Both the position numbers and the translations under genes were made by a program. A model generated the notes under the pieces. The model was not told the origin of the DNA. It ran no database searches and was given only the letters and a program-made list of their open reading frames with translations. Shown here piece after piece: positions 14,250 to 28,386 of a DNA stretch of 49,374 nt (positions are counted from its first letter, which is position 1; each line of letters begins with the position of its first letter). This DNA is from Bacteroidales bacterium (GTDB lineage Bacteria; Bacteroidota; Bacteroidia; Bacteroidales; P3). Where the stretch lies: NCBI GenBank assembly GCA_017479705.1, contig JAFVCA010000033.1, positions 1 through 49,374 of the forward strand. Reading direction: 5' to 3'.

Positions 14250-14882
14250 CGTCTGTATATTGAGCTAAATATATTCTTTTCCCTAATGAATCTCTGGTCT
14301 GCCGCCACCGTCTTGCCTTGCCCGTGCCGATAAACAGGAATATTTACGCCAAACCTTTTTTCGCCCCATTAACACATTTCACCGTATATCAATAATATAC
14401 CACCACCAAAGCGGACACATTCTTCCTCTCCCGGCATTGTAAATATACACAAAAAAAACGAACCTGCAAAATCTTTAACATTCTGTCAACAGGCCTTATT
14501 CCTGCGAAAGCCTCTGGGGGTGGCTTTTCGGGGCGGAACCGCAATCTGCAAGTTTTCCGTAGCCGTTGCATACAGCCTTTTTGCCCCTGCCCCTACCAAT
14601 CCGTTCCCCGCCGACCCCCAGCGTCCATTCCTGTATGCAAAGCCCATCTCCGATGCTCCCTCGGCCGTTGGCTCCCACATGCCCATCATCTCATCAACAT
14701 TTATCCCAATCCCAACGGGCATATTGACCCCGAAGGGAGCGGGGAGGAACAGGGAAGGAACGGCCCAGGAAACAATCTTGCGCAAAGGCATTTATACTAT
14801 CGTGACCACTTGGCGGCTACTGGGAGAGAGTTTTTTTCTATTGTGGTGCAATAATTCTACGTGAAGTACGTTAAGTTACTTG
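14250..14882. other. Intergenic stretch with no accepted gene
   Basis: TATATTTA on the minus strand near 14440 may be the promoter of the T9SS cargo gene, giving a leader of about 190 bases. Between 14486 and 14864 frames of 101 codons (minus) and 114 codons (plus) are open opposite each other. Neither has a recognisable domain or a promoter of the usual type, so I call neither. The segment is G+C-rich compared with its flanks. Confidence 0.5.
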
Positions 14883-15749
14883 ATGAAGCCATCAATACAC
14901 ATAGCATTTGATTCTGTTGTTCCTGAAGAATGGCTGGCGCAAGTCAGTGGAGGAATATCCCGGGGGCAAGGTTGTGCGCAGGGTGCTTTGGTGTATATAG
15001 ATGTTTCCGAGGCCATCGGACAAGCAGAAATCTTCCCTTACCACATAGTTTCATTGGCCGCCATGGTTGACGCCCTGAAGCAAGAGGGCGCTAAAGTGTA
15101 CATCAGGTCTAACAAAATGGGGGATTACCTGTACAATGAGTTGCATTTTAAAGACTATTTTGTAGACAACAAGAACTTCCTGCCCTCGCACGACGAATCG
15201 TTGCTGAGTTTGTGGCGTGTAAAGGAGGATGAGATTGATTTGCACCCAGAACTTATCCAGCAATATCTGAAGCGTACTTTTTTTTCAAACAAGGATTTGA
15301 GTGCCGTCAAACTGAGCTTGCTGGAGTCATATTACAACATTTTTGACCATGCCGAGGCCCGGAATAACGCATGGTCTATGATGATGTATAATGAGGAGTG
15401 CCACCGATTATATGTAGCTGTGGGTGACTTGGGTATTGGTATTCCGACTTCGGTAAAAAGAGTGATACCTTCGCTGTCAGATGAAGAGGCACTGCTGAAA
15501 GCCATGGAGCCAACGTTCACCAGCATGAGCCGAAAACACAACAGGGGCTTGGGGCTGGGATACATAAAGGATGCTTGCACAGAAGGGGACAGCCTGACGA
15601 TTGTAAGCAACCATGCAAAATTGGTGACGACACAGGATAGGACTACTACCGCGCCGATGCCATTCCTTTTCCGGGGGACATTGATTTATTACGAATTGAC
15701 GTTGACTCATTTCGAAAACGAGGAGATTATTGACAACTTTGAAATATAA
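14883..15749 (+). CDS. GHKL (histidine-kinase-like) ATPase with N-terminal STAS-like region
   Basis: 288 residues from the ATG at 14883; a TTG one codon earlier is possible. Residues 140-275 show the Bergerat ATP fold: N box LLESYYNIFDHA (E148, N152, H156), G1 box VGDLGIGIP (D182, G184, G186) and G2 box RGLGLGY (222-226). There is no dimerisation/phospho-acceptor histidine module, so it is not a sensor kinase. Residues 33-95 (GALVYIDVSEAIG...KVYIRSNKMGDYLYNELHF) read like a STAS fold. The combination resembles SpoIIAB/RsbW-type protein kinases or phosphate-switch ATPases. It is followed 6 bases later by a STAS-like DUF4325 gene, its probable partner. Target unknown; no sigma factor or phosphatase gene is adjacent. 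Confidence 0.75.
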   Translation: MKPSIHIAFDSVVPEEWLAQVSGGISRGQGCAQGALVYIDVSEAIGQAEIFPYHIVSLAAMVDALKQEGAKVYIRSNKMGDYLYNELHFKDYFVDNKNFLPSHDESLLSLWRVKEDEIDLHPELIQQYLKRTFFSNKDLSAVKLSLLESYYNIFDHAEARNNAWSMMMYNEECHRLYVAVGDLGIGIPTSVKRVIPSLSDEEALLKAMEPTFTSMSRKHNRGLGLGYIKDACTEGDSLTIVSNHAKLVTTQDRTTTAPMPFLFRGTLIYYELTLTHFENEEIIDNFEI

Positions 15750-15755
15750 CTTTTT

Positions 15756-16034
15756 ATGTGCAAAATAGACATCAAGGCACTCCTTGAAGGGAGGAATTAC
15801 CCCGAAGCAGGCGATATTTTGTTCGGGCTGATGAGCGACAGTCTCAAAAAGGGCGAGAAGGTGATACTGAACATGGAGGGTGTTGACAGTCTGCCAACAA
15901 TGTTCCTGAACACTTCCATTGGCCAGTACATCAAGGATCACGGAAAAGATTCGCTACAGGGCAACCTGGCATTTGAGAAAATCACAGCACAACAGGTGGT
16001 GCGCGTGAAAGAATATCTTTCGCGGTTTGCGTAG
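15756..16034 (+). CDS. STAS-like protein (DUF4325 family)
   Basis: 92 residues. The pattern fits DUF4325: a short N-terminal region with a LFGLM helix, a strand KVILNMEGVDSLPTMFLNTSIGQYI, then a helix and final strand NLAFEKITAQQVVRVKEYL. DUF4325 proteins are STAS-like and often encoded beside GHKL ATPases. The gene begins 6 bases after the ATPase stop, so the two are almost certainly co-translated and likely interact. In anti-anti-sigma factors a serine in the STAS loop is phosphorylated; S77-like serines are present (DSLPT) but I cannot assign one. Confidence 0.75.
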   Translation: MCKIDIKALLEGRNYPEAGDILFGLMSDSLKKGEKVILNMEGVDSLPTMFLNTSIGQYIKDHGKDSLQGNLAFEKITAQQVVRVKEYLSRFA

Positions 16035-18131: not shown

Positions 18132-18329
18132 CACAAAAAAACGGAATAGTCACACCGACAGGAGAGAGACACTCACAAATTGCCGTGGAACATGCCATCA
18201 GGTGGCCTCTAATCCCATTGCTACCCATAGAGATTCATGGGAAAGCTTTTTATTAACACGAATTGTCATTAATTAATCATAAATTCATAACTTTTTTAGT
18301 CTATTACAATACCACACGACGAATCTGCA

Positions 18330-18427
18330 TTTTGTGCAGTTTGAAGATATAATTTTAACATATTTTGTGCAGTTTTATCAAGAATAAATCGCAATTTTGT
18401 GCAGTTTGAAAATTATTTGTATATTTG
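18330..18427 (+). promoter_or_regulatory. Three operator-like direct repeats running into the promoter of the first DUF4143 ATPase
   Basis: TTTTGTGCAGTTT occurs at 18330-18342, 18363-18375 and 18395-18407, spaced 33 and 32 bp (about three helical turns). The third copy contains the -33 TTTG (18396-18399), which stands 20 bases before TATATTTG (18420-18427). A protein bound at copy 3 would cover the promoter. The intervals between copies differ in sequence. The rest of the 352-base gap 18094-18445 holds only the divergent promoter at 18124 and A+T-rich DNA. Confidence 0.75.
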
Positions 18428-18445: not shown

Positions 18446-19723
18446 ATGAATTTGCTGCAAATACTTATAGACCAACAAGAAGAGATAAAAAACACAGACA
18501 CACGCCTACTCTGTCCACGCAAGGAAGAATCCAAAATAGAGCTTAAGAGCAAACTTGCACAGGTGGTGATTGGTGTTCGGCGCAGTGGAAAATCAACACT
18601 CTGTCAGAAAGTACTGCTTGAAAGCGGAGTGGATTTCGCATACGTCAACTTTGACGATGAACGGTTAGCAGACCTCCATGCAGACAGTTTGGACGAAATG
18701 CTCCAATGCTTGTATCGGATCAATGGGGATTTCTCTCATCTTTTTCTTGACGAAATACAGAATATCGACAAATGGCCACTATTTGTCAACCGCCTGTTGC
18801 GGCAAGGCATCAAGATAATTCTCACAGGGAGTAATGCCAATCTGCTAAGCGGGGAGCTGTCCACACACCTGACAGGGAGATACCACCAAATAGAGTTGTT
18901 CCCGTTCTCTTTCATGGAATATTGCTCATACACAAAGACCGACCTAACTGGGCAATCAACCAAAAGCCAGGCTCTTCGCCAACGTGCGTTGGATAGATAT
19001 TTGCTACAAGGAGGATTCCCCGAGCTGCTGGAAACGACTTCGCACAACGACTATGCGTCATCGTTGCTTAATGCCATTGTAAACAAAGATATTTGTCGGC
19101 GATATAATGTCCGGTATAAAGATGTGTTATGGGAAATGACCAACTTGGTGCTTGACCAGTTCTCGCAAGAAATATCCTCAACCAAGATTGCTCAGCAATT
19201 AGGGGTTAAATCTGTCCATACCACAGAGAATTATTTGACTTACCTGGCAAATGCATACCTGTTGATGCCTATTCACCGTTTTTCGTACAAGAGTATGGAA
19301 CGTCGAACAAGCCGCAAATTCTATGCTGTTGATATGCTTTTCATCACTCATCACGAAACACCATTGCAAACGGAGAATTTAGGATGGCGTTTGGAAAACA
19401 TTGTAGCTATTGAATTGTCCCGCCGGATGAATCGCGAGAGTGACAACCTATACTACATACGGAAAAGTTCAACATTCGAGGTGGATTTCGTCGTTACACA
19501 TTACAGTCATGTTAAAGAACTGATACAGGTGACATACTCTTTCAATAACCCGACAACCAAGCAATACAACCGCGAAGTTGGTGGACTGCTGAAAGGGGCA
19601 GACATTACCCACTGTGACAAGCTGACACTTATAGTGATGGAAGGCGAGACAAAAACAATCACCGTTGGCGATAAGACCATTCAACAGGTACTTGCCACCG
19701 ATTGGTTGCTTGGAAAAGAGTAA
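18446..19723 (+). CDS. AAA ATPase with DUF4143 domain (first copy)
   Basis: 425 residues from ATG 18446; the frame extends to a TTG that lies inside the promoter, so it is not used. Walker A GVRRSGKST (43-51), Walker B HLFLDEIQN (D102-E103) and sensor-like IILTGSNA (125-131). A winged-helix-like segment lies at 240-272 (SSTKIAQQLGVKSVHTTENYLTYLANAYLL). A C-terminal nuclease-like region has E317, E323 and STFEVDFVV (E345, D347), resembling PD-(D/E)XK folds. This AAA_14-DUF4143 architecture is common in Bacteroidetes and archaea and has no settled function. The gene follows three promoter repeats and starts the A+T-rich island. The DNA-binding-like segment makes self-regulation plausible. Confidence 0.85.
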   Translation: MNLLQILIDQQEEIKNTDTRLLCPRKEESKIELKSKLAQVVIGVRRSGKSTLCQKVLLESGVDFAYVNFDDERLADLHADSLDEMLQCLYRINGDFSHLFLDEIQNIDKWPLFVNRLLRQGIKIILTGSNANLLSGELSTHLTGRYHQIELFPFSFMEYCSYTKTDLTGQSTKSQALRQRALDRYLLQGGFPELLETTSHNDYASSLLNAIVNKDICRRYNVRYKDVLWEMTNLVLDQFSQEISSTKIAQQLGVKSVHTTENYLTYLANAYLLMPIHRFSYKSMERRTSRKFYAVDMLFITHHETPLQTENLGWRLENIVAIELSRRMNRESDNLYYIRKSSTFEVDFVVTHYSHVKELIQVTYSFNNPTTKQYNREVGGLLKGADITHCDKLTLIVMEGETKTITVGDKTIQQVLATDWLLGKE

Positions 19724-21913: not shown

Positions 21914-22470
21914 CAATAGAAAAGGAGAAATATTGAATCCGCTGCATAGGTACCAACCTTTTTCCATCCATGCAAGGGGAGAGGGATTTTTCCCTCTCCC
22001 TTTGCTGGGGAAAAAAACTTTCACCAGCCTTGTTTCTCTCTCAAAAAGTCGCGTTTCTATTGGAACTTATCGTTTTTAGATATCTCCTCAGTGAGGTAAA
22101 ATTATCAACAACGCCATACAAGCAATAGGCACAGAGGATAATCAACTGCAACAAGACCTTTGCATCCAGTAGGGTCACACTAAATATAAAATATAGGTAA
22201 AGCCTACCCGGAAAGGCCAACTGCAACCTCCTCAACGTTTCTTGGAAAAGTATAATCTACAATTCTCATCAATTCTCATCTTATCACAGCAGTCTCTCCA
22301 ATGTACCGCAAATCTTCACATTCTTAAAGACCCATTGTTTTAGGTAAATAGATACAGCCTATATGTATTTTTCTTGCCAATTGATATTTTTTGCGTATAT
22401 TTGCAAACCAAAAACTCATTTGGTGGCTGATGTTGTTTGCTCAGCTTCGAGACTTTAATTGCATATTGTT
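21914..22470 (+). promoter_or_regulatory. Long gap with a 15-bp hairpin and the promoter of the helicase gene
   Basis: At 21972-22005 GCAAGGGGAGAGGGA pairs with TCCCTCTCCCTTTGC around a TTTT loop. It is strong, but followed by A rather than T, so it is only terminator-like. 22006-22370 shows nothing coding. TATATTTG at 22396-22403, with CTTG 19 bases upstream (22373-22376), is the likely promoter of the helicase gene, leaving a leader of about 60 bases. Confidence 0.55.
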
Positions 22471-25425
22471 ATGACATTACAAAATCTATGTAAGTACTAT
22501 ATTAGCTGCATTGAATTAGAAAGTAATACTACTCTTCGTGCGTCAATAAAGAATAATACATCTTTCATCAGTCTTCCATGGATTAATGACGATGCACTAA
22601 AGTTGTCTAACATTAGCAGTTTCCTCAACGTAAAACAAGAAAAAGAAAAAGAATTATTGATAGGTTACCCCATACTAAAGGTCCAACATTTTCTGTCTCC
22701 CGTATTTATTGTCCACGTAACCCATCACGAAAGTTCATCCGGAAAACCTGAAGGATTCTATATCGACGACGAATTGCTAATAAATAAAGATGTGGTTGAT
22801 AAGTACTCCTCAAATGAAAAGACTGAAAACATTTATGAATTAAGAGCGTTAGAAAAAGAGCTGGGGTTTACCGATGGACATGCCTCATTTGCTGATTTAG
22901 CAGAAAAAGTTAGTTTGCTCAAAACAATTCGTCCCAATTGGGATTGGAATGATATCATTGAGCCGGATAATCTCAAGAAAGGGGCCGTGAGAATGGACGA
23001 GAAAGATGGTATTCTAAATCGTGCCATCATTATCGCAAAGGATCCAACACCATATACAGTGGGTCTAAGCAACGAACTTGCTCGTCTGGAAAGTAGTATA
23101 GATTTAAATATTCAGAATTCTATATTGTGGAAATTCCTTAATCAGAAGTTCAACGAAACGAGACCATTGAAAAATGAGATATTAGAGGTGCTACCACTAA
23201 ACGATGAGCAAGAAAAAGCCATCAAATCAGCCTTGAGTGCTGATGTTACATTAATATCAGGGCCTCCAGGAACGGGAAAGACACAAGTGGTTGCAAATCT
23301 AATTATCAATGCTGCAATAAACAATCAGACAGTTCTATTCACAAGCAAGAACAACAATGCGGTGGATGTCGTTGTAAGGCGAGTCAACTCTCTTAACAAA
23401 GAGCTACCATTAATTCTTAGACTTGAAAAGGATGTCATACAATGTATTTCGGAATATACCCAACTGTGGGTAAAAGCTACAGCAAAAAAAGACACTTTAC
23501 GAGATGCTTTTGATAAATACAAGTGGGTATATCATAGCTATCATTCAAAGCAAGAACAGAAGCAACAGATAGTAACCAACAGAAACAAGCTTGATGAGTT
23601 GGAGCAAACGGTCTGTGGCATCAGAGACAAACTCAACCATTGGAACAATCCAGCGAATGAGGAAGAAATAAAAGAAGCAAAGAAAGCCTATGAGATTGTC
23701 AAGAAAAACAGGAACAAAATCAACAAAGGCCCTACAAGGCTGATTGACAGGGTATTCAAAAAGAAATGGCTAAAGAAAATCCAAGAACGTAATCTAACTT
23801 CTTCCTATACCATCAACTCATTTACTGAAAAATACAATCCCAAATTGACAATCAAGCCCCAGATGTCAGAACGTGAGTGGTTGTCTTTTGATGGTGAATT
23901 TAACAAACTATGTTATGACTTGGCCTTAATAATAGAATATAAACATGAACTCCTCAAATTAAGCGATTCGGCTTCTCTTGAACAACTTGATGCTGCGATG
24001 ATGAATGAACATGTAGAACTACAAGCAGAGGCGAAAACCGCATGGAACGCTTGGTTGAATCACCACATCGGTGCTTTTAACTTTAATAACCGCGGGAGGC
24101 TATATGACTATATGAGGTTTATCGAATATGACAAAATTGATGCATATCCACCCATTATTAGTACGCTGTTGCCAATCAATGCTGTCACCTCTCTTAGCGT
24201 TCGTAGGAGGATTCCCTTTAAACCAGCCTTGTATGATTTGCTGATAATCGATGAGGCAAGTCAATGCGACATTGCTTCCATGATACCATTACTATTGAGA
24301 GCAAAACGTGTAGCCGTAATTGGCGACAGTAAACAACTGAATCATATTTGTTTACTAAGCAAGCAGACTGACTTGTCGCTAATAAAGAAAAACGACATAG
24401 AAATCCGTTGGTCATACCGTGCAAGTTCAATTTATGATCTTGCGTCATGTATGTCCAAAGCAGAGAATATAATTCAACTGCGCGACCATCACCGAAGTTT
24501 CCTTGATATTATCCAATTTTCTAACAAGGAGTTCTATGACAATGCTCTTCGAATTGCTACGGACTATAGCCGTTTGGTATCGCCCAATAACGGGAAACCA
24601 ATCCTTGGGATGCAATGGATGGATGTTAAAGGCAAAACAGTACGTCCCGAGTCTGGCGGTGCATACAATCTTCAGGAAGCCGAGAGTGTTATTCGCATCC
24701 TAAGACGTTTATCCATCGGTCTCAACTTCAATGGCACTATTGGGGTGACAACCCCGTTCCATTTACAGGCTGAAATGATTTCACGAGCTTTGGAGCGGGA
24801 TTCCGAATTAAGAAACCATTTGGAACTCCATAACAAGATATTGATAGACACCGTACACAAGTTTCAGGGTGATGAACGCGATGTGATAATCTTCTCCCCT
24901 GTAGTATCTGACGGCACAAAACCACAAAGTCTATTGTTCTTAAAGTCAACTGGAAACCTATTCAATGTTGCCATTACCAGAGCAAGGTCATTACTTGTTA
25001 CTGTTGGCGACAAGCACTATTGCAAACAATGTGGAGTGAGTTATCTCGAACACTTTGCCGAATATAGTTGTGGAGAATCTGCTCCTGTTGAATCTTCAGA
25101 ATGGGAGCACATTTTACAAAAGGCACTTTCAGATGCCGGAATCCCTGTCACTGCACAATATCCCGTTGACAAATACTATCTGGACTTGGCTCTATTTTAC
25201 AAAGGGAGGAAACTTGACATAGAGGTTGATGGAGCAATGTATCATCAAACCTGGACTGGTGAATTGTGCTACAATGACCAACTCAGGAATCAAGCATTAA
25301 TGCGTGAAGGCTGGGATGTAATTCGTTTTTGGGTTCAACAAATACGAGACCTGATGCCCTGGTGTATAAAGCAAATAAAGGATTGGATGGACAATGTGGA
25401 TAAATCAAATCCTTTAATAATCTAA
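22471..25425 (+). CDS. Superfamily 1 helicase with C-terminal Vsr/DUF559-like endonuclease domain
   Basis: 984 residues from ATG 22471. SF1 motifs: Walker [14 protein letters not shown] (near 265), Ia-like VLFTSKNNNAVDVVV, motif II LLIIDEASQ (near 594), III VAVIGDSKQLNHI, V DTVHKFQGDERDVIIFSP, VI LFNVAITRARS (near 831). About 320 residues between motifs Ia and II are lysine-rich and partly coiled coil. From about 876 there is an endonuclease-like domain: EWEHILQKALSDAG, DLALFYKGRKLDIEVDG, then RNQALMREGWDVIRFW, as in Vsr/DUF559 (very-short-patch-repair-like) folds. The first 230 residues are unrecognised. Helicase plus Vsr-like nuclease in one chain is known from anti-phage genes such as Hhe; defence is the likeliest role, by analogy only. 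It is flanked by mobile-looking ATPase genes. Confidence 0.8.
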   Translation: MTLQNLCKYYISCIELESNTTLRASIKNNTSFISLPWINDDALKLSNISSFLNVKQEKEKELLIGYPILKVQHFLSPVFIVHVTHHESSSGKPEGFYIDDELLINKDVVDKYSSNEKTENIYELRALEKELGFTDGHASFADLAEKVSLLKTIRPNWDWNDIIEPDNLKKGAVRMDEKDGILNRAIIIAKDPTPYTVGLSNELARLESSIDLNIQNSILWKFLNQKFNETRPLKNEILEVLPLNDEQEKAIKSALSADVTLISGPPGTGKTQVVANLIINAAINNQTVLFTSKNNNAVDVVVRRVNSLNKELPLILRLEKDVIQCISEYTQLWVKATAKKDTLRDAFDKYKWVYHSYHSKQEQKQQIVTNRNKLDELEQTVCGIRDKLNHWNNPANEEEIKEAKKAYEIVKKNRNKINKGPTRLIDRVFKKKWLKKIQERNLTSSYTINSFTEKYNPKLTIKPQMSEREWLSFDGEFNKLCYDLALIIEYKHELLKLSDSASLEQLDAAMMNEHVELQAEAKTAWNAWLNHHIGAFNFNNRGRLYDYMRFIEYDKIDAYPPIISTLLPINAVTSLSVRRRIPFKPALYDLLIIDEASQCDIASMIPLLLRAKRVAVIGDSKQLNHICLLSKQTDLSLIKKNDIEIRWSYRASSIYDLASCMSKAENIIQLRDHHRSFLDIIQFSNKEFYDNALRIATDYSRLVSPNNGKPILGMQWMDVKGKTVRPESGGAYNLQEAESVIRILRRLSIGLNFNGTIGVTTPFHLQAEMISRALERDSELRNHLELHNKILIDTVHKFQGDERDVIIFSPVVSDGTKPQSLLFLKSTGNLFNVAITRARSLLVTVGDKHYCKQCGVSYLEHFAEYSCGESAPVESSEWEHILQKALSDAGIPVTAQYPVDKYYLDLALFYKGRKLDIEVDGAMYHQTWTGELCYNDQLRNQALMREGWDVIRFWVQQIRDLMPWCIKQIKDWMDNVDKSNPLII

Positions 25426-25944
25426 TTTTCTCTGATACATTCGCTATTTTTACGAGTTCGGTTTATTTGAGAATATGAAAACAACCAAGCGAAAGATTAT
25501 TATGGAGTCCTGTTCTCGGTTTGAGACAACCCGCTAATCCCATCTATTTGTTCTCATTGTCGCGTCCCGCCGGGACTCTCTTGCTTTTTGCTTTTTCACC
25601 GATAGTCACCACACTATATATATGTCTTGCAAGGGGTTACTAAAGACCTCAACTCTCCGACACGCATAAGACGGTCTCTGTTCCCCCACACTAAACACCG
25701 TAGGTGTGTAGTGTGGGGTTAATAGGATAGCTTACTTTCAGTACGCAAGACCCCGCCACTTCATTAAGTTCATATCCATTTAAGAAACAAGAAGACGACT
25801 GGCATTTGCCAATACAAAACGCTCCAACCATGCCCAAGCGCTAAGGGAATAAGGATTCATTAACTGGACAATGAATGACATATTCCTGCATCAGAAAGTA
25901 TCCATATCTGAAAAGAAATAACGATTCGGCAAAGTAAAAACATC
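25426..25944. repeat. Non-coding stretch with a TTAATAGGAT hairpin repeat (copy 2)
   Basis: No gene seen. CCCCACACTA (25684-25693) pairs perfectly with TAGTGTGGGG (25709-25718), with ACACC/GGTGT inside the loop. 25711-25728 is identical to 2107-2124. A GTCCCGCCGGGAC palindrome stands near 25564. Confidence 0.6.
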
Positions 25945-26015
25945 AGAATTTTCTATTATAACAGACAAATCTTATAAGAATTTTCTATTATAATCGAAAT
26001 TTCTTAGTATCTTTG
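25945..26015 (+). promoter_or_regulatory. Two operator-like direct repeats and promoter of the second DUF4143 ATPase
   Basis: AGAATTTTCTATTATAA (17 bases) occurs at 25945-25961 and 25977-25993, spaced exactly 32 bp. The promoter box TATCTTTG is at 26008-26015, so the second repeat covers the -33 region. The sequence differs from the repeats at 18330, but spacing and placement match. Confidence 0.72.
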
Positions 26016-26038
26016 CAGTCGGAAAAGGCGAAAGAATT

Positions 26039-27172
26039 ATGATAGAACGGATGCTTAAAAAACTGATTGAAAAAAGATTATATCGCAACAAAGCCATTAT
26101 TGTGATTGGTCCAAGGCAGGTTGGAAAAACCACACTGCTGAAAATGTTAGTTTCCGAGACCAAAAACCGGGTGCTGGAATGGAACTGCGACGAGCCCGAC
26201 GTGAGGCGCAAGTTGACCGAGCCCAGCTCCACCGAGATGAAAGCTGAAATCGGGGATGCCAACTTGATATTGATCGATGAGGCTCAGCGCGTAAAGAATA
26301 TTGGCATCACGCTAAAACTGTTGATTGACAACTACCCGGAAAAGCAGGTCATCGCTACTGGATCTTCGGCTATCGAGATGTCCAATTCAATCAACGAACC
26401 TCTGACAGGTCGTAAATATGAGTACGTGATGTATCCTTTCTCCTGCCAAGAGCTCTTCAATGAGTTTGGCGAACTGGAAGAACGGCGTATGCTTGAACGG
26501 CGGTTAATATACGGTTCCTATCCTGAAGTTGTGAATAATGCAGGGGAAGAGCGGGAGACTTTGACAGAGCTTGTGGGCAGCTATCTATACAAGGATATTT
26601 TCTCATTCCAGGATGTACGCAAACCCGAAATCATCGAGCAACTGCTTCAGGCATTGGCCCTGCAGCTTGGCAGCGAAGTGTCATACAATGAGCTGGGGCG
26701 ACTGCTGGGACTGAACACGGCAACCGTCCAACGATACATTGATCTGTTAGAAAAGTCATACGTTATATTCCACCTACGTTCGTTTAGCCGCAATGTACGG
26801 TCAGAGTTGAAGAAAAGCCGGAAGATATACTTCTACGACAACGGAGTGCGCAACGCCTTGATAGGCGATTATAAACCACTGCCACTACGGGCAGACGTGG
26901 GTGCCTTATGGGAAAACTACATGATTGTGGAGCGCATAAAACACAATGCCTACAATGCTTTTTACGGCAAAAGCTACTTCTGGCGCACACAGCAGCAACA
27001 AGAGATAGACTACATTGAAGACCTTGACGGGGTGCTGCATGCTTACGAGTTTAAATGGAACGACAGCAAGCGTCCCCGTTTGACTGACACTTTTGCCAAG
27101 GCATATCCCGACCACACATTCACCGTGGTGAGTCCCGAAAACTATCAATCCTTTGTAAAAGGCGAACTATAA
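26039..27172 (+). CDS. AAA ATPase with DUF4143 domain (second copy)
   Basis: 377 residues. Walker A IGPRQVGKTT (23-32), Walker B LILIDEAQ (D80-E81), sensor-like VIATGSSA (104-111). A winged-helix-like segment lies at 214-246 (VSYNELGRLLGLNTATVQRYIDLLEKSYVIFHL). The C-terminal nuclease-like DUF4143 region has ENYMIVE (E292), EIDYIE (E322, D324) and HAYEFKW (E337, K339), fitting a PD-(D/E)XK pattern. It is only distantly similar to the gene at 18446. The start ATG lies 24 bases after the promoter box. The downstream alcohol dehydrogenase begins 29 bases after the stop, without its own visible promoter. Confidence 0.87.
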   Translation: MIERMLKKLIEKRLYRNKAIIVIGPRQVGKTTLLKMLVSETKNRVLEWNCDEPDVRRKLTEPSSTEMKAEIGDANLILIDEAQRVKNIGITLKLLIDNYPEKQVIATGSSAIEMSNSINEPLTGRKYEYVMYPFSCQELFNEFGELEERRMLERRLIYGSYPEVVNNAGEERETLTELVGSYLYKDIFSFQDVRKPEIIEQLLQALALQLGSEVSYNELGRLLGLNTATVQRYIDLLEKSYVIFHLRSFSRNVRSELKKSRKIYFYDNGVRNALIGDYKPLPLRADVGALWENYMIVERIKHNAYNAFYGKSYFWRTQQQQEIDYIEDLDGVLHAYEFKWNDSKRPRLTDTFAKAYPDHTFTVVSPENYQSFVKGEL

Positions 27173-27201
27173 GAATACAACACAACAAAATACAGAATAC
27201 C

Positions 27202-28386
27202 ATGCAAGGAAATTTCATTTACCACAATCCCACGAAGCTTTACTTTGGCGAGGATGCAATGAACCATCTGATTGACGAACTGAAGAGCTATGGCCCGACA
27301 GTGATGCTGAGCTACGGCGGCGGCTCGATCAAGCGCAACGGCATCTACGACGCTGTGACCGCTGCCCTGAAGGCGGCGGGCAAGACCGTTGTGGAGGACG
27401 CCGGCGTGATGCCCAATCCCACCTATGAGAAAGTGCAGGAGGGCTGCCGTCGGGTGCGGGAGAACAAAGTTGACCTCATCCTGGCCGTGGGCGGCGGCTC
27501 CACCATCGACTATGCCAAGGGCGTGAGCGCCTCCGCCTACTGCGAAGAGGAGCCTTGGGAGAAGTACTGGGTGAAACAGGGCAACCCCACGTGCCAGACG
27601 GTCCCCGTGGGCTCCGTGCTCACCATGGTGGGCACCGGCAGCGAGATGAACGGCGGCAGCGTCATCACCAACCGCAAGGCCGGATTCAAACTGGGCAAAG
27701 TGTTCGGTCCGGCCCTCTACCCGAAGTTCACCATCCTCAATCCCCGCTTCACCATGACGGTGCCGCAGTACCAGATGGTGGCCGGCTTCTTCGACATCAT
27801 GAGCCACCTGATGGAGCAGTACTTTGCCGGCACGGCGGACTGCACCACGGACTACATCAACGAAGGCCTGATGCGCTCGCTCATCCACGCCACCCGCATT
27901 GCGGCCAAGAACCCGCAGGACTACGAGGCACGCGCCAACATCATGTGGACAGCCACCTGGGCACTGAACACCCTGCTGAAATGCGGCAAGGGCGGCGACT
28001 GGGAGGTACACCAGATTGGCCACGCCATAGGCTTGGTGACCGATGCCACCCACGGCATGACGCTTGCCAGCGTCTCCCTGCCCTACTACCACCACGTGAT
28101 GCACGACGGTCTGCACCAGTTTGCCCGCTTTGCCAAGAACGTGTGGGACGTGCGCCCCGAAGGCAAGAGCGACGAGCAGGTGGCCACAGAAGGCCTCGCC
28201 TGTTTAGAAAGCTGGATGAAAGAAATCGGTGTGGTGATGAACGCGGCCGAACTGGGCGTGACCGAAGAGAACCTGCAACAAGTGGTCGACGCTGTCCTCA
28301 TTCTGCCTGTGGGCTACCGCACCCTCACCCGCGACGAGGTGGTGGACATCCTGCGCCAAAGCATGTCCGGCCCTAGAGCCAACTAA
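27202..28386 (+). CDS. Iron-containing alcohol dehydrogenase (NADPH-dependent butanol dehydrogenase type)
   Basis: 394 residues. Group III iron ADH features: NPTKLYFGEDAM at the N-terminus, VMLSYGGGSIKRNG, the nucleotide-binding AVGGGSTIDYAKGV, VLTMVGTGSEMNGGSVITN, and metal-ligand histidines in SHLMEQYF and HQIGHAIGLVTDATHGMTLA. Closest in pattern to BdhA/YqhD enzymes that reduce aldehydes with NAD(P)H in the cytoplasm. Codon use is G+C-rich like the core genome, unlike the ATPase gene just upstream, so the island boundary falls here. Confidence 0.93.
   Translation: MQGNFIYHNPTKLYFGEDAMNHLIDELKSYGPTVMLSYGGGSIKRNGIYDAVTAALKAAGKTVVEDAGVMPNPTYEKVQEGCRRVRENKVDLILAVGGGSTIDYAKGVSASAYCEEEPWEKYWVKQGNPTCQTVPVGSVLTMVGTGSEMNGGSVITNRKAGFKLGKVFGPALYPKFTILNPRFTMTVPQYQMVAGFFDIMSHLMEQYFAGTADCTTDYINEGLMRSLIHATRIAAKNPQDYEARANIMWTATWALNTLLKCGKGGDWEVHQIGHAIGLVTDATHGMTLASVSLPYYHHVMHDGLHQFARFAKNVWDVRPEGKSDEQVATEGLACLESWMKEIGVVMNAAELGVTEENLQQVVDAVLILPVGYRTLTRDEVVDILRQSMSGPRAN

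Follow-up and report, generated by a model that had tools for sequence, protein, structure and literature searches.

The ATPase gene analysed here, which matches the candidate defence family PDC-S01, is preceded by two palindromic sites 32 bp apart that lie over its own promoter, and across its homologues the sequence of such sites co-varies with three residues of a predicted recognition helix in the protein that the gene encodes. We consider that these genes probably (at a probability of roughly 0.7) constitute self-addressed, autoregulated and probably autorepressed ATPase-nuclease modules, each comprising one gene and its private operator. This reading is supported by comparison, i.e. by the repeats, their phasing to the promoter, the covariation, the private occurrence of the operators scanned, and the intact active-site residues. 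We would assign the roles of regulator and effector to the same polypeptide, its binding to the operator being predicted with high confidence from these sequence patterns; that it represses rather than activates its own transcription is proposed with moderate confidence, and the trigger, the nuclease target and the defence role assigned to the module below are putative.

The window (i.e. the whole stretch of 49,374 nucleotides of Bacteroidales DNA that was analysed) contains the sequence AGAATTTTCTATTATAA in two identical copies, at 25945-25961 and 25977-25993, with a spacing of exactly 32 bp. No direct repeat in the 338 bp upstream of the gene is longer than these 17 nucleotides, and in 1000 mononucleotide shuffles the maximum was 13, which excludes a chance origin. 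Each copy of the 17-mer shows part of a degenerate dyad, TTTTC-TATTA/TAATC-GAAAA (the slash marking the centre), with centres at 25958/25959 and 25990/25991. The repeats are followed at 26008-26015 by TAtcTTTG, which we take to be a -7 box of the Bacteroidota type. This box lies 17 bp downstream of the centre of the proximal copy, so that this copy extends over the -33 region. An earlier note on this DNA, which had described an exact repeat at a spacing of 32 bp covering this region, and unrelated in sequence to the repeat of another ATPase near position 18330, is confirmed on both points (ATTTTGTGCAGTTT, the repeat of that second ATPase, differs from AGAATTTTCTATTATAA). The features of the locus are as follows.

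25948-25969, + strand: distal operator, a degenerate palindrome centred at 25958/25959, overlapping the first 17-bp repeat (25945-25961).
25980-26001, + strand: proximal operator, centred at 25990/25991, 32 bp from the distal centre, overlapping the second 17-bp repeat (25977-25993) and lying over the -33 region.
26008-26015, + strand: -7 promoter box TAtcTTTG, 17 bp past the proximal operator centre.
26039-27172, + strand: ATPase of 377 residues with AAA_14, predicted wHTH and DUF4143 (PD-(D/E)XK-like) regions; PADLOC PDC-S01 (PDLC04789, E 1.9e-163).
26714-26722, + strand: codons for residues 226-228 (N-T-A), with which the predicted recognition helix begins and which covariation marks as the specificity residues.
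27002-27055, + strand: codons of residues 322-339, with the PD-(D/E)XK-type motif E322, D324, E337 and K339 (conserved in 144, 144, 144 and 142 of 144 loci of the subfamily).

Relatives of the window protein (E <= 0.001) are present in 107 of 120 genomes of the genus and in 203 of 395 genomes of the phylum, and homologues occur in 505 of 72,556 plasmid records and 13 of 50,697 phage records. The 80 named loci that were kept from 122 confirmed stretches carry titles that include Saprospiraceae, Flavobacteria, Gammaproteobacteria, Treponema and Clostridia. Amongst 152 distinct upstream regions (169 loci, reduced to 155 by removal of duplicates and of two partial hits, L004 and L006, with at least 120 bp upstream required; close relatives remain), the best direct-repeat lag was 32 or 33 in 131, compared with about 7 of 152 for dinucleotide shuffles. 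The same lags were found upstream of 55 of 67 modules of the named loci, as against 4 of 112 other genes of those loci, three of these four also scoring at least 14; shuffles and other genes together exclude AT-rich background as the cause of the repeats. Further loci from the phylum gave lag 32 or 33 in 52 of 69 cases. As the operator scanners and one operator listing were preset to lags of 31-34 or 32-34, the period is best quoted from scans of lags 15-60, from which all period figures given here (131/152, 52/69 and 4/112, as well as 26/28 and 21/30 for the two further subfamilies described below) were obtained. Each copy tends to a palindrome, TTTnnGGAwTr/yAwTCCnnAAA, with variable inner bases, of which the degenerate dyad given above is the window's version. 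A clear lag of 32 or 33 was seen in none of seven distant plasmid homologues (28-30% identity), nor in a Desulfosarcina homologue of 55% identity. By eye, five distant plasmid homologues (L214-L218) have a private inverted repeat near the start codon in place of the 32-bp direct repeats; L214 is situated directly behind repC and L216 some 950 bp behind RepA.

At most loci with a -7 box the operators lie at set distances from it. A TAnnTTTG box was found in the last 70 bp at 98 of 144 loci (7% of shuffles), the remaining 46 having none. The distance from this box to the centre of the proximal operator is 13-18 bp at 53 loci, and one or two periods more at others (45-49 bp at 16, 80 bp at one); at a further 17 it is -13 to -15 bp, such that the proximal operator lies over the box and the distal operator 17-19 bp before it. 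In all, the operator centre is in phase with the -7 box at 87 of the 98 boxed loci, with 11 at other distances; because of this phasing, control site and promoter look like a single unit, and the arrangement is that of an autoregulator, with its site over its own promoter at fixed phase. As the operators overlie their own promoter, at the -33 region or, in the second class, at the -7 box itself, the bound protein most likely represses its own transcription. The protein might instead be an auto-activator that, on the -33 region, recruits RNA polymerase in a timing loop like that of C proteins, at least where the operator lies upstream of the -7 box. The 53 loci with an operator centre 13-18 bp upstream of the box, i.e. 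at the place of the -33 element, could accommodate such activation, and the operator bases there vary with the address, which would leave little room for a constant -33 sequence; the 17 loci with the proximal operator over the -7 box, however, fit a repressor, and activation seems to us unlikely.

For the analysis of covariation, operators were taken from DNA alone. A first set, from which seven low-scoring operators (L077, L100, L078, L109, L178, L179 and L074) were dropped, comprised 148 loci, of which 91 were non-redundant (<85% identity); the same seven were excluded from the set of 144 non-redundant loci, for which the operator scorer had no base preference at positions -8 to -5 (9 of 217 loci in this larger set lay under the null threshold). 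Three loci with gaps at residues 226-228 (L021, L037 and L116) were entered as gaps in the 91-locus ranking and in the table of the code, and omitted from the Mantel test, the earlier and smaller tree test described below and the 144-locus analysis. In the 91-locus set, columns 228 and 227 of the 377 were the most informative on the operator, with column 226 first for position -5 and sixth overall. With 144 loci, columns 228, 227 and 226 ranked first to third of 377 (1.58, 1.20 and 1.02), followed by column 136 (0.92), and each had its own position in the operator, column 228 being best for -6 (0.85, next 0.34), column 227 for -7 (0.37, next 0.24) and column 226 for -5 (0.57, next 0.33); at -8 column 136 leads (0.27), followed by column 227 (0.23). 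Judged by sequence pattern, residues 226-228 stand at the beginning of the second helix in a helix-turn-helix motif (SYNELGRLLGLNTATVQRYIDLLEKS), and residues 201-240 of the window protein give a sub-threshold Pfam match to HTH_11.

The resulting code is partly readable. At residue 228, Lys or His is found with G, Glu, Gln or Asp with C, and Asn, Val or Ile with T, Leu being split between T and A; at residue 226, Asp accompanies G, Ser accompanies C, and Asn accompanies T or others; at residue 227, Lys or Asn goes with G and Ser with T. The window protein has Ala at 228, which is ambiguous (C, T and G all occur with it), and its operator is palindromic in degenerate form only; the window pair is therefore a member of the pattern and not among its best examples. 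When a prediction table trained on 86 earlier loci was applied to new loci, the held-out base was predicted correctly for 228/-6, 227/-7 and 226/-5 in 37 of 46, 37 of 43 and 41 of 53 cases, respectively, against majority-base baselines of 12, 9 and 23; scoring covered those of 58 loci at which at least three of four half-sites agreed and the residue had occurred in training (it was unseen in 3, 2 and 1 more).

Shared ancestry alone does not account for this pattern. The partial Mantel statistic for the three residues, with the rest of the protein controlled, was 0.526 over 88 loci, a value that none of 2000 permutations equalled, and the best of 348 other three-residue windows reached 0.176. 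On a tree built without the HTH columns, none of the supported independent pairs ran in the opposite direction: for Glu, Gln or Asp with C at 228/-6, 6-7 of 7 supported pairs agreed (median sign-test p 0.016), and the median p was 0.031 for Asn, Val, Ile or Leu with T and likewise for Asp226 with G, 0.0625 for Lys or His with G, and 0.125 for 227/-7. An earlier and smaller tree test had two supported pairs only, with 57 of 57 rows in agreement. The other protein columns, the partial Mantel test and the independent pairs together exclude phylogeny alone as the source of the covariation; the site co-varies with the protein's own predicted DNA-reading residues, as would be expected of an autoregulator.

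The residues expected of an active enzyme are intact in the window-type subfamily. Walker A residues G24 and K30 and Walker B residue D80 are present in 144 of 144 loci and E81 in 143, whilst in the C-terminal domain E298, E322, D324 and E337 are found in all 144 and K339 in 142, an assignment made by motif only. At this level, the window ATPase shows the PDC-S01 architecture of an ATPase fused to a predicted PD-(D/E)XK domain with its catalytic residues. PADLOC models for PDC-S01 were matched by all nine of the own-genome proteins scanned (out of 14), with best E values of 1.9e-163 and 1e-91 for the two in the window and from 1e-23 to 1.5e-182 for the other seven. Sequence searches against solved structures retrieved AAA+ ATPases only (E 0.001-0.003), and scans of NCBIfam and PHROGs yielded weak matches only, mostly to P-loop ATPases.

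The second PDC-S01 gene of the window has an operator array of its own.

18329-18407, + strand: operator array of the second ATPase, three copies of ATTTTGTGCAGTTT at 18329, 18362 and 18394 (lags 33 and 32).
18446-19723, + strand: second PDC-S01 ATPase (PDLC04787, E 1e-91), of a sister subfamily with QV[STAC] at the ExK position of its nuclease motif.

QV[STAC] stands in place of ExK in all 30 fetched loci of this sister subfamily (L180-L209), so canonical nuclease action is not common to all of these proteins; as most of its members nevertheless keep the repeats, self-addressing repeats are present even without a canonical nuclease motif. Its best lag is 32 or 33 in 21 of 30 loci, including all 19 with at least 44% identity to the second ATPase of the window; the 11 most distant of those fetched (30-37% identity) have mostly other lags, six of them 42. 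These lag-42 upstream regions (6 of the 30 loci) fall among the distant members L199-L208. Matching recognition helices seem to accompany matching repeats in the sister subfamily, which, given its few clades, is suggestive only. A third subfamily, that of L006 (30 loci, two of them partial), has a lag of 32-34 in 26 of 28 cases, and the repeats of both the sister and the third subfamily, at 32-34 bp, differ in sequence from those of the window type. In the window's own genome, L008 and L010 read QAS at the ExK position.

In the assembly that contains the window (2.1 Mb, 75% complete), DUF4143 was detected 15 times, in 14 open frames. At least six of these genes (L001, L002, L004, L006, L007 and L009) are preceded by clear direct repeats with a spacing of 32-34 bp, and the sequence of these repeats differs from gene to gene; L006 has five copies at 33 bp, L004 four at 33, L009 three at 34, and L001 two with an imperfect third at 32. 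An 11-bp repeat is found at lag 61 for L005 and at lag 33 for L011, the start of which is uncertain; the repeats of L003, L010, L013, L014 and L015 look imperfect or inverted, as judged by eye on the printed sequence with no statistic, and upstream of L008 no repeat was seen. On contig C47 (12134-15014), L006 and L001 stand back to back, and the intergenic region between them contains two operator arrays that are unrelated to each other.

The operators are also private. In its own assembly the exact window site occurs twice, both copies at its own promoter, and the three exact copies of ATTTTGTGCAGTTT are likewise confined to the promoter of the second ATPase. Inexact copies elsewhere are single, i.e. 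one with one mismatch (between open frames) and one with two for the window site, and two with one mismatch each, both overlapping open frames, for ATTTTGTGCAGTTT. An operator of the GGTGA type, with one mismatch allowed, was found in 4 of 20 genomes, each time at a module of that address and as two sites 32 bp apart; it was absent from the other 16, the modules of G273 and G313 carrying a variant outside the pattern. In G231 (L335) a third, inexact site lies about 400 bp upstream of the module; by eye its neighbours look decayed, as might be expected had an insertion interrupted a formerly longer array. A wider regulon is excluded for the three operators scanned, exact sites being located solely at their own promoters and, because the private address is matched to the three predicted DNA-reading residues of the protein, each gene appears to control only itself. 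The earlier note had proposed that each ATPase recognises its own repeat, and that a family of self-addressed ATPase/operator modules exists, and had suggested a comparison of repeat and winged-helix sequences over many homologues; either a lack of covariation or the sharing of repeats by unrelated genes was to count against it. As far as tested, the repeats do co-vary with the protein, most strongly in the predicted recognition helix (228, 227 and 226), and no exact copy of the three scanned repeats lies at another gene; both proposals thus find strong support in comparison of sequences.

Confinement of the exact scanned sites to their own promoters, together with intact ATPase and nuclease-motif residues, would also suit a sensor of operator loss, as the earlier note had suggested, in which the bound protein is inactive and is released when the operator, and hence the chromosome or module, is destroyed. 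No result, however, favours this idea in particular, the sister subfamily has the repeats without the ExK motif, and we consider a sensor of this kind improbable. Exclusion between modules of the same address, in which a resident protein would act on an incoming element that carries its own address and modules would compete, draws on the presence of homologues in 505 of 72,556 plasmid records and on patchy placement with varied flanks; the resident's own copy would, however, also be attacked unless protected, and equal addresses within genomes are not significantly avoided (1 near-identical pair in 59, versus 2.28 expected for the divergence), such that we give exclusion very little credence.

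The borders of the module were examined by DNA comparison of thirteen orthologues with the window. For six of about 80% identity (L048-L052 and L054) the main homology runs from 25931-25945 to 27144-27165, i.e. operator plus gene, one of them (L050) having an extra 25-bp match in the next gene. Four orthologues at 92-93% identity share more DNA: one matches upstream only from 25947 and downstream to 29285, two match from 25875 to 28366 with a further patch at 25784-25876, and one at this identity has about 1.2 kb between the gene and the next gene. The module consists of operator and gene, set in unrelated flanks. Upstream of the neighbouring alcohol dehydrogenase gene (30 loci, window included), this module is found within 45 bp in four cases and a different PDC-S01 module in one, a PDC-S01 match lies about 1.2 kb away in two (an intact gene in G096 and an apparent C-terminal fragment in G007), and no PDC-S01 was found within at most 1500 bp in 23. 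In the window the module ends about 30 bp before this iron-type dehydrogenase gene (27172-27202); as G096 (L303) has, by eye, a separate promoter-like stretch before the dehydrogenase, that of the window may be read from the ATPase promoter.

Borders of this kind, with homology of the orthologues of about 80% identity starting at the first repeat and stopping near the stop codon, raise the possibility that the repeats serve a mobile or replicating element as its ends or iterons and have no part in promoter control. A pattern search of the window's own genome, however, found exact copies only upstream and, with up to two mismatches allowed, no repeat copy at the 3' end of the gene, which rejects the ends of a transposable element; the phasing to the -7 box likewise argues against this idea, which we regard as highly improbable. 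Type III toxin-antitoxin systems, too, carry tandem repeats of similar period ahead of a gene, with repeats and toxin read from one promoter, and the repeats here could by analogy be transcribed as an antitoxin RNA. Against this, the repeats of the window and of most boxed homologues precede the -7 box, so that the type III layout is rejected, and the bases of the palindrome co-vary with the predicted DNA-reading helix; a transcribed antitoxin is therefore scarcely credible.

Between the two PDC-S01 genes, 22459-25425 encodes an SF1 helicase (AAA_11/AAA_12) with a REase_MTES_1575/DUF559 nuclease-like end, the nearest PADLOC entries to which are MkoC, MkoA, PDC-S37 and Hhe. The second PDC-S01 gene and this helicase both lie within 8 kb of the window ATPase, and in gene content the stretch looks like a small defence island. 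The region 14880-16034 contains the gene for an unassigned 289-residue protein followed by that for a DUF4325 STAS-like protein.

PDC-S01 has been described as an ATPase fused to PD-(D/E)XK that ranks fourth in frequency amongst the defences of all prokaryotes (PMC12988326), and as the most frequent individual locus in rumen genomes, with 10,358 occurrences (PMC13356809); the accessible portions of these two papers, both from 2026, report its abundance and give no mechanism. Both window ATPases and seven other scanned paralogues match PDC-S01 models and have the same fusion, whilst the published description, in its accessible portion, is without a private operator or recognition code, and one subfamily here lacks ExK. 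The closest regulatory parallels come from the available part of PMC12255303. RptR, the repressor of a defence island, resembles the present modules in binding three direct repeats, each with a palindrome, that overlie its own promoter; it is, however, a small, separate regulatory protein, and its 6-bp site (reported in four variants) is part of 9-bp repeats (PMC12255303), whereas here the presumed regulator is the ATPase-nuclease itself, the site varies from paralogue to paralogue, and the period is 32-34 bp. The C proteins of type II restriction-modification, BrxR/CapW and CapR likewise provide dedicated transcriptional control of defence, but with control and effector as separate proteins (PMC12255303), functions that here would reside in one polypeptide. 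In toxin-antitoxin autoregulation a DNA-binding antitoxin represses its native promoter (PMC12255303), similar to the repression proposed here, although no second gene is seen to be needed for the present modules, in which an AAA+ ATPase and a nuclease-like domain occur in the same protein. Thermus TT_P0211, labelled AAA 14/DUF4143, was 6.6-fold up when plasmid and Argonaute were both present, according to the accessible part of PMC4406477, a rise that would be compatible with an inducible promoter if the paper's label is taken as the link to this family; other Thermus plasmid homologues are only 28-29% identical to the window protein. In literature on DUF4143, COG1373, AAA_14, PDC-S01 and PF13173/PF13635 we found no recognisable report of such operators, which is weak evidence of absence as subscription papers and preprints lay mostly beyond its scope.

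For self-addressed, autorepressed modules we propose that residues 226-228 of the recognition helix would read positions -5 to -7 in both half-sites of two palindromes 32 bp apart. As this period is approximately three helical turns, the two dimers would lie on one face of the DNA, where parts of the ATPase could bridge them. A change of ATP or DNA state, e.g. on invasion by a phage or plasmid, may then free the protein and give a burst of ATPase and nuclease. Each module would set its own level, leave the other modules in the genome alone, and move together with its own switch. A bolder and rather doubtful extension would cast PDC-S01 modules as one-gene immune sentinels that target only their own promoter: the ATPase would clamp its private two-site address and be silent while clamped, expression and nuclease would be freed together when invasion removes or overrides the address, diverse addresses would let a dozen modules coexist per cell, and changes at three residues would re-key them.

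PDC-S01 is a very common yet unexplained candidate anti-virus ATPase family, to which these results add a defined DNA target for each protein, partly readable from three residues. Such defined targets make binding, regulation, induction and cross-talk directly testable, and the modules may offer a set of orthogonal promoter-regulator pairs for Bacteroidota.
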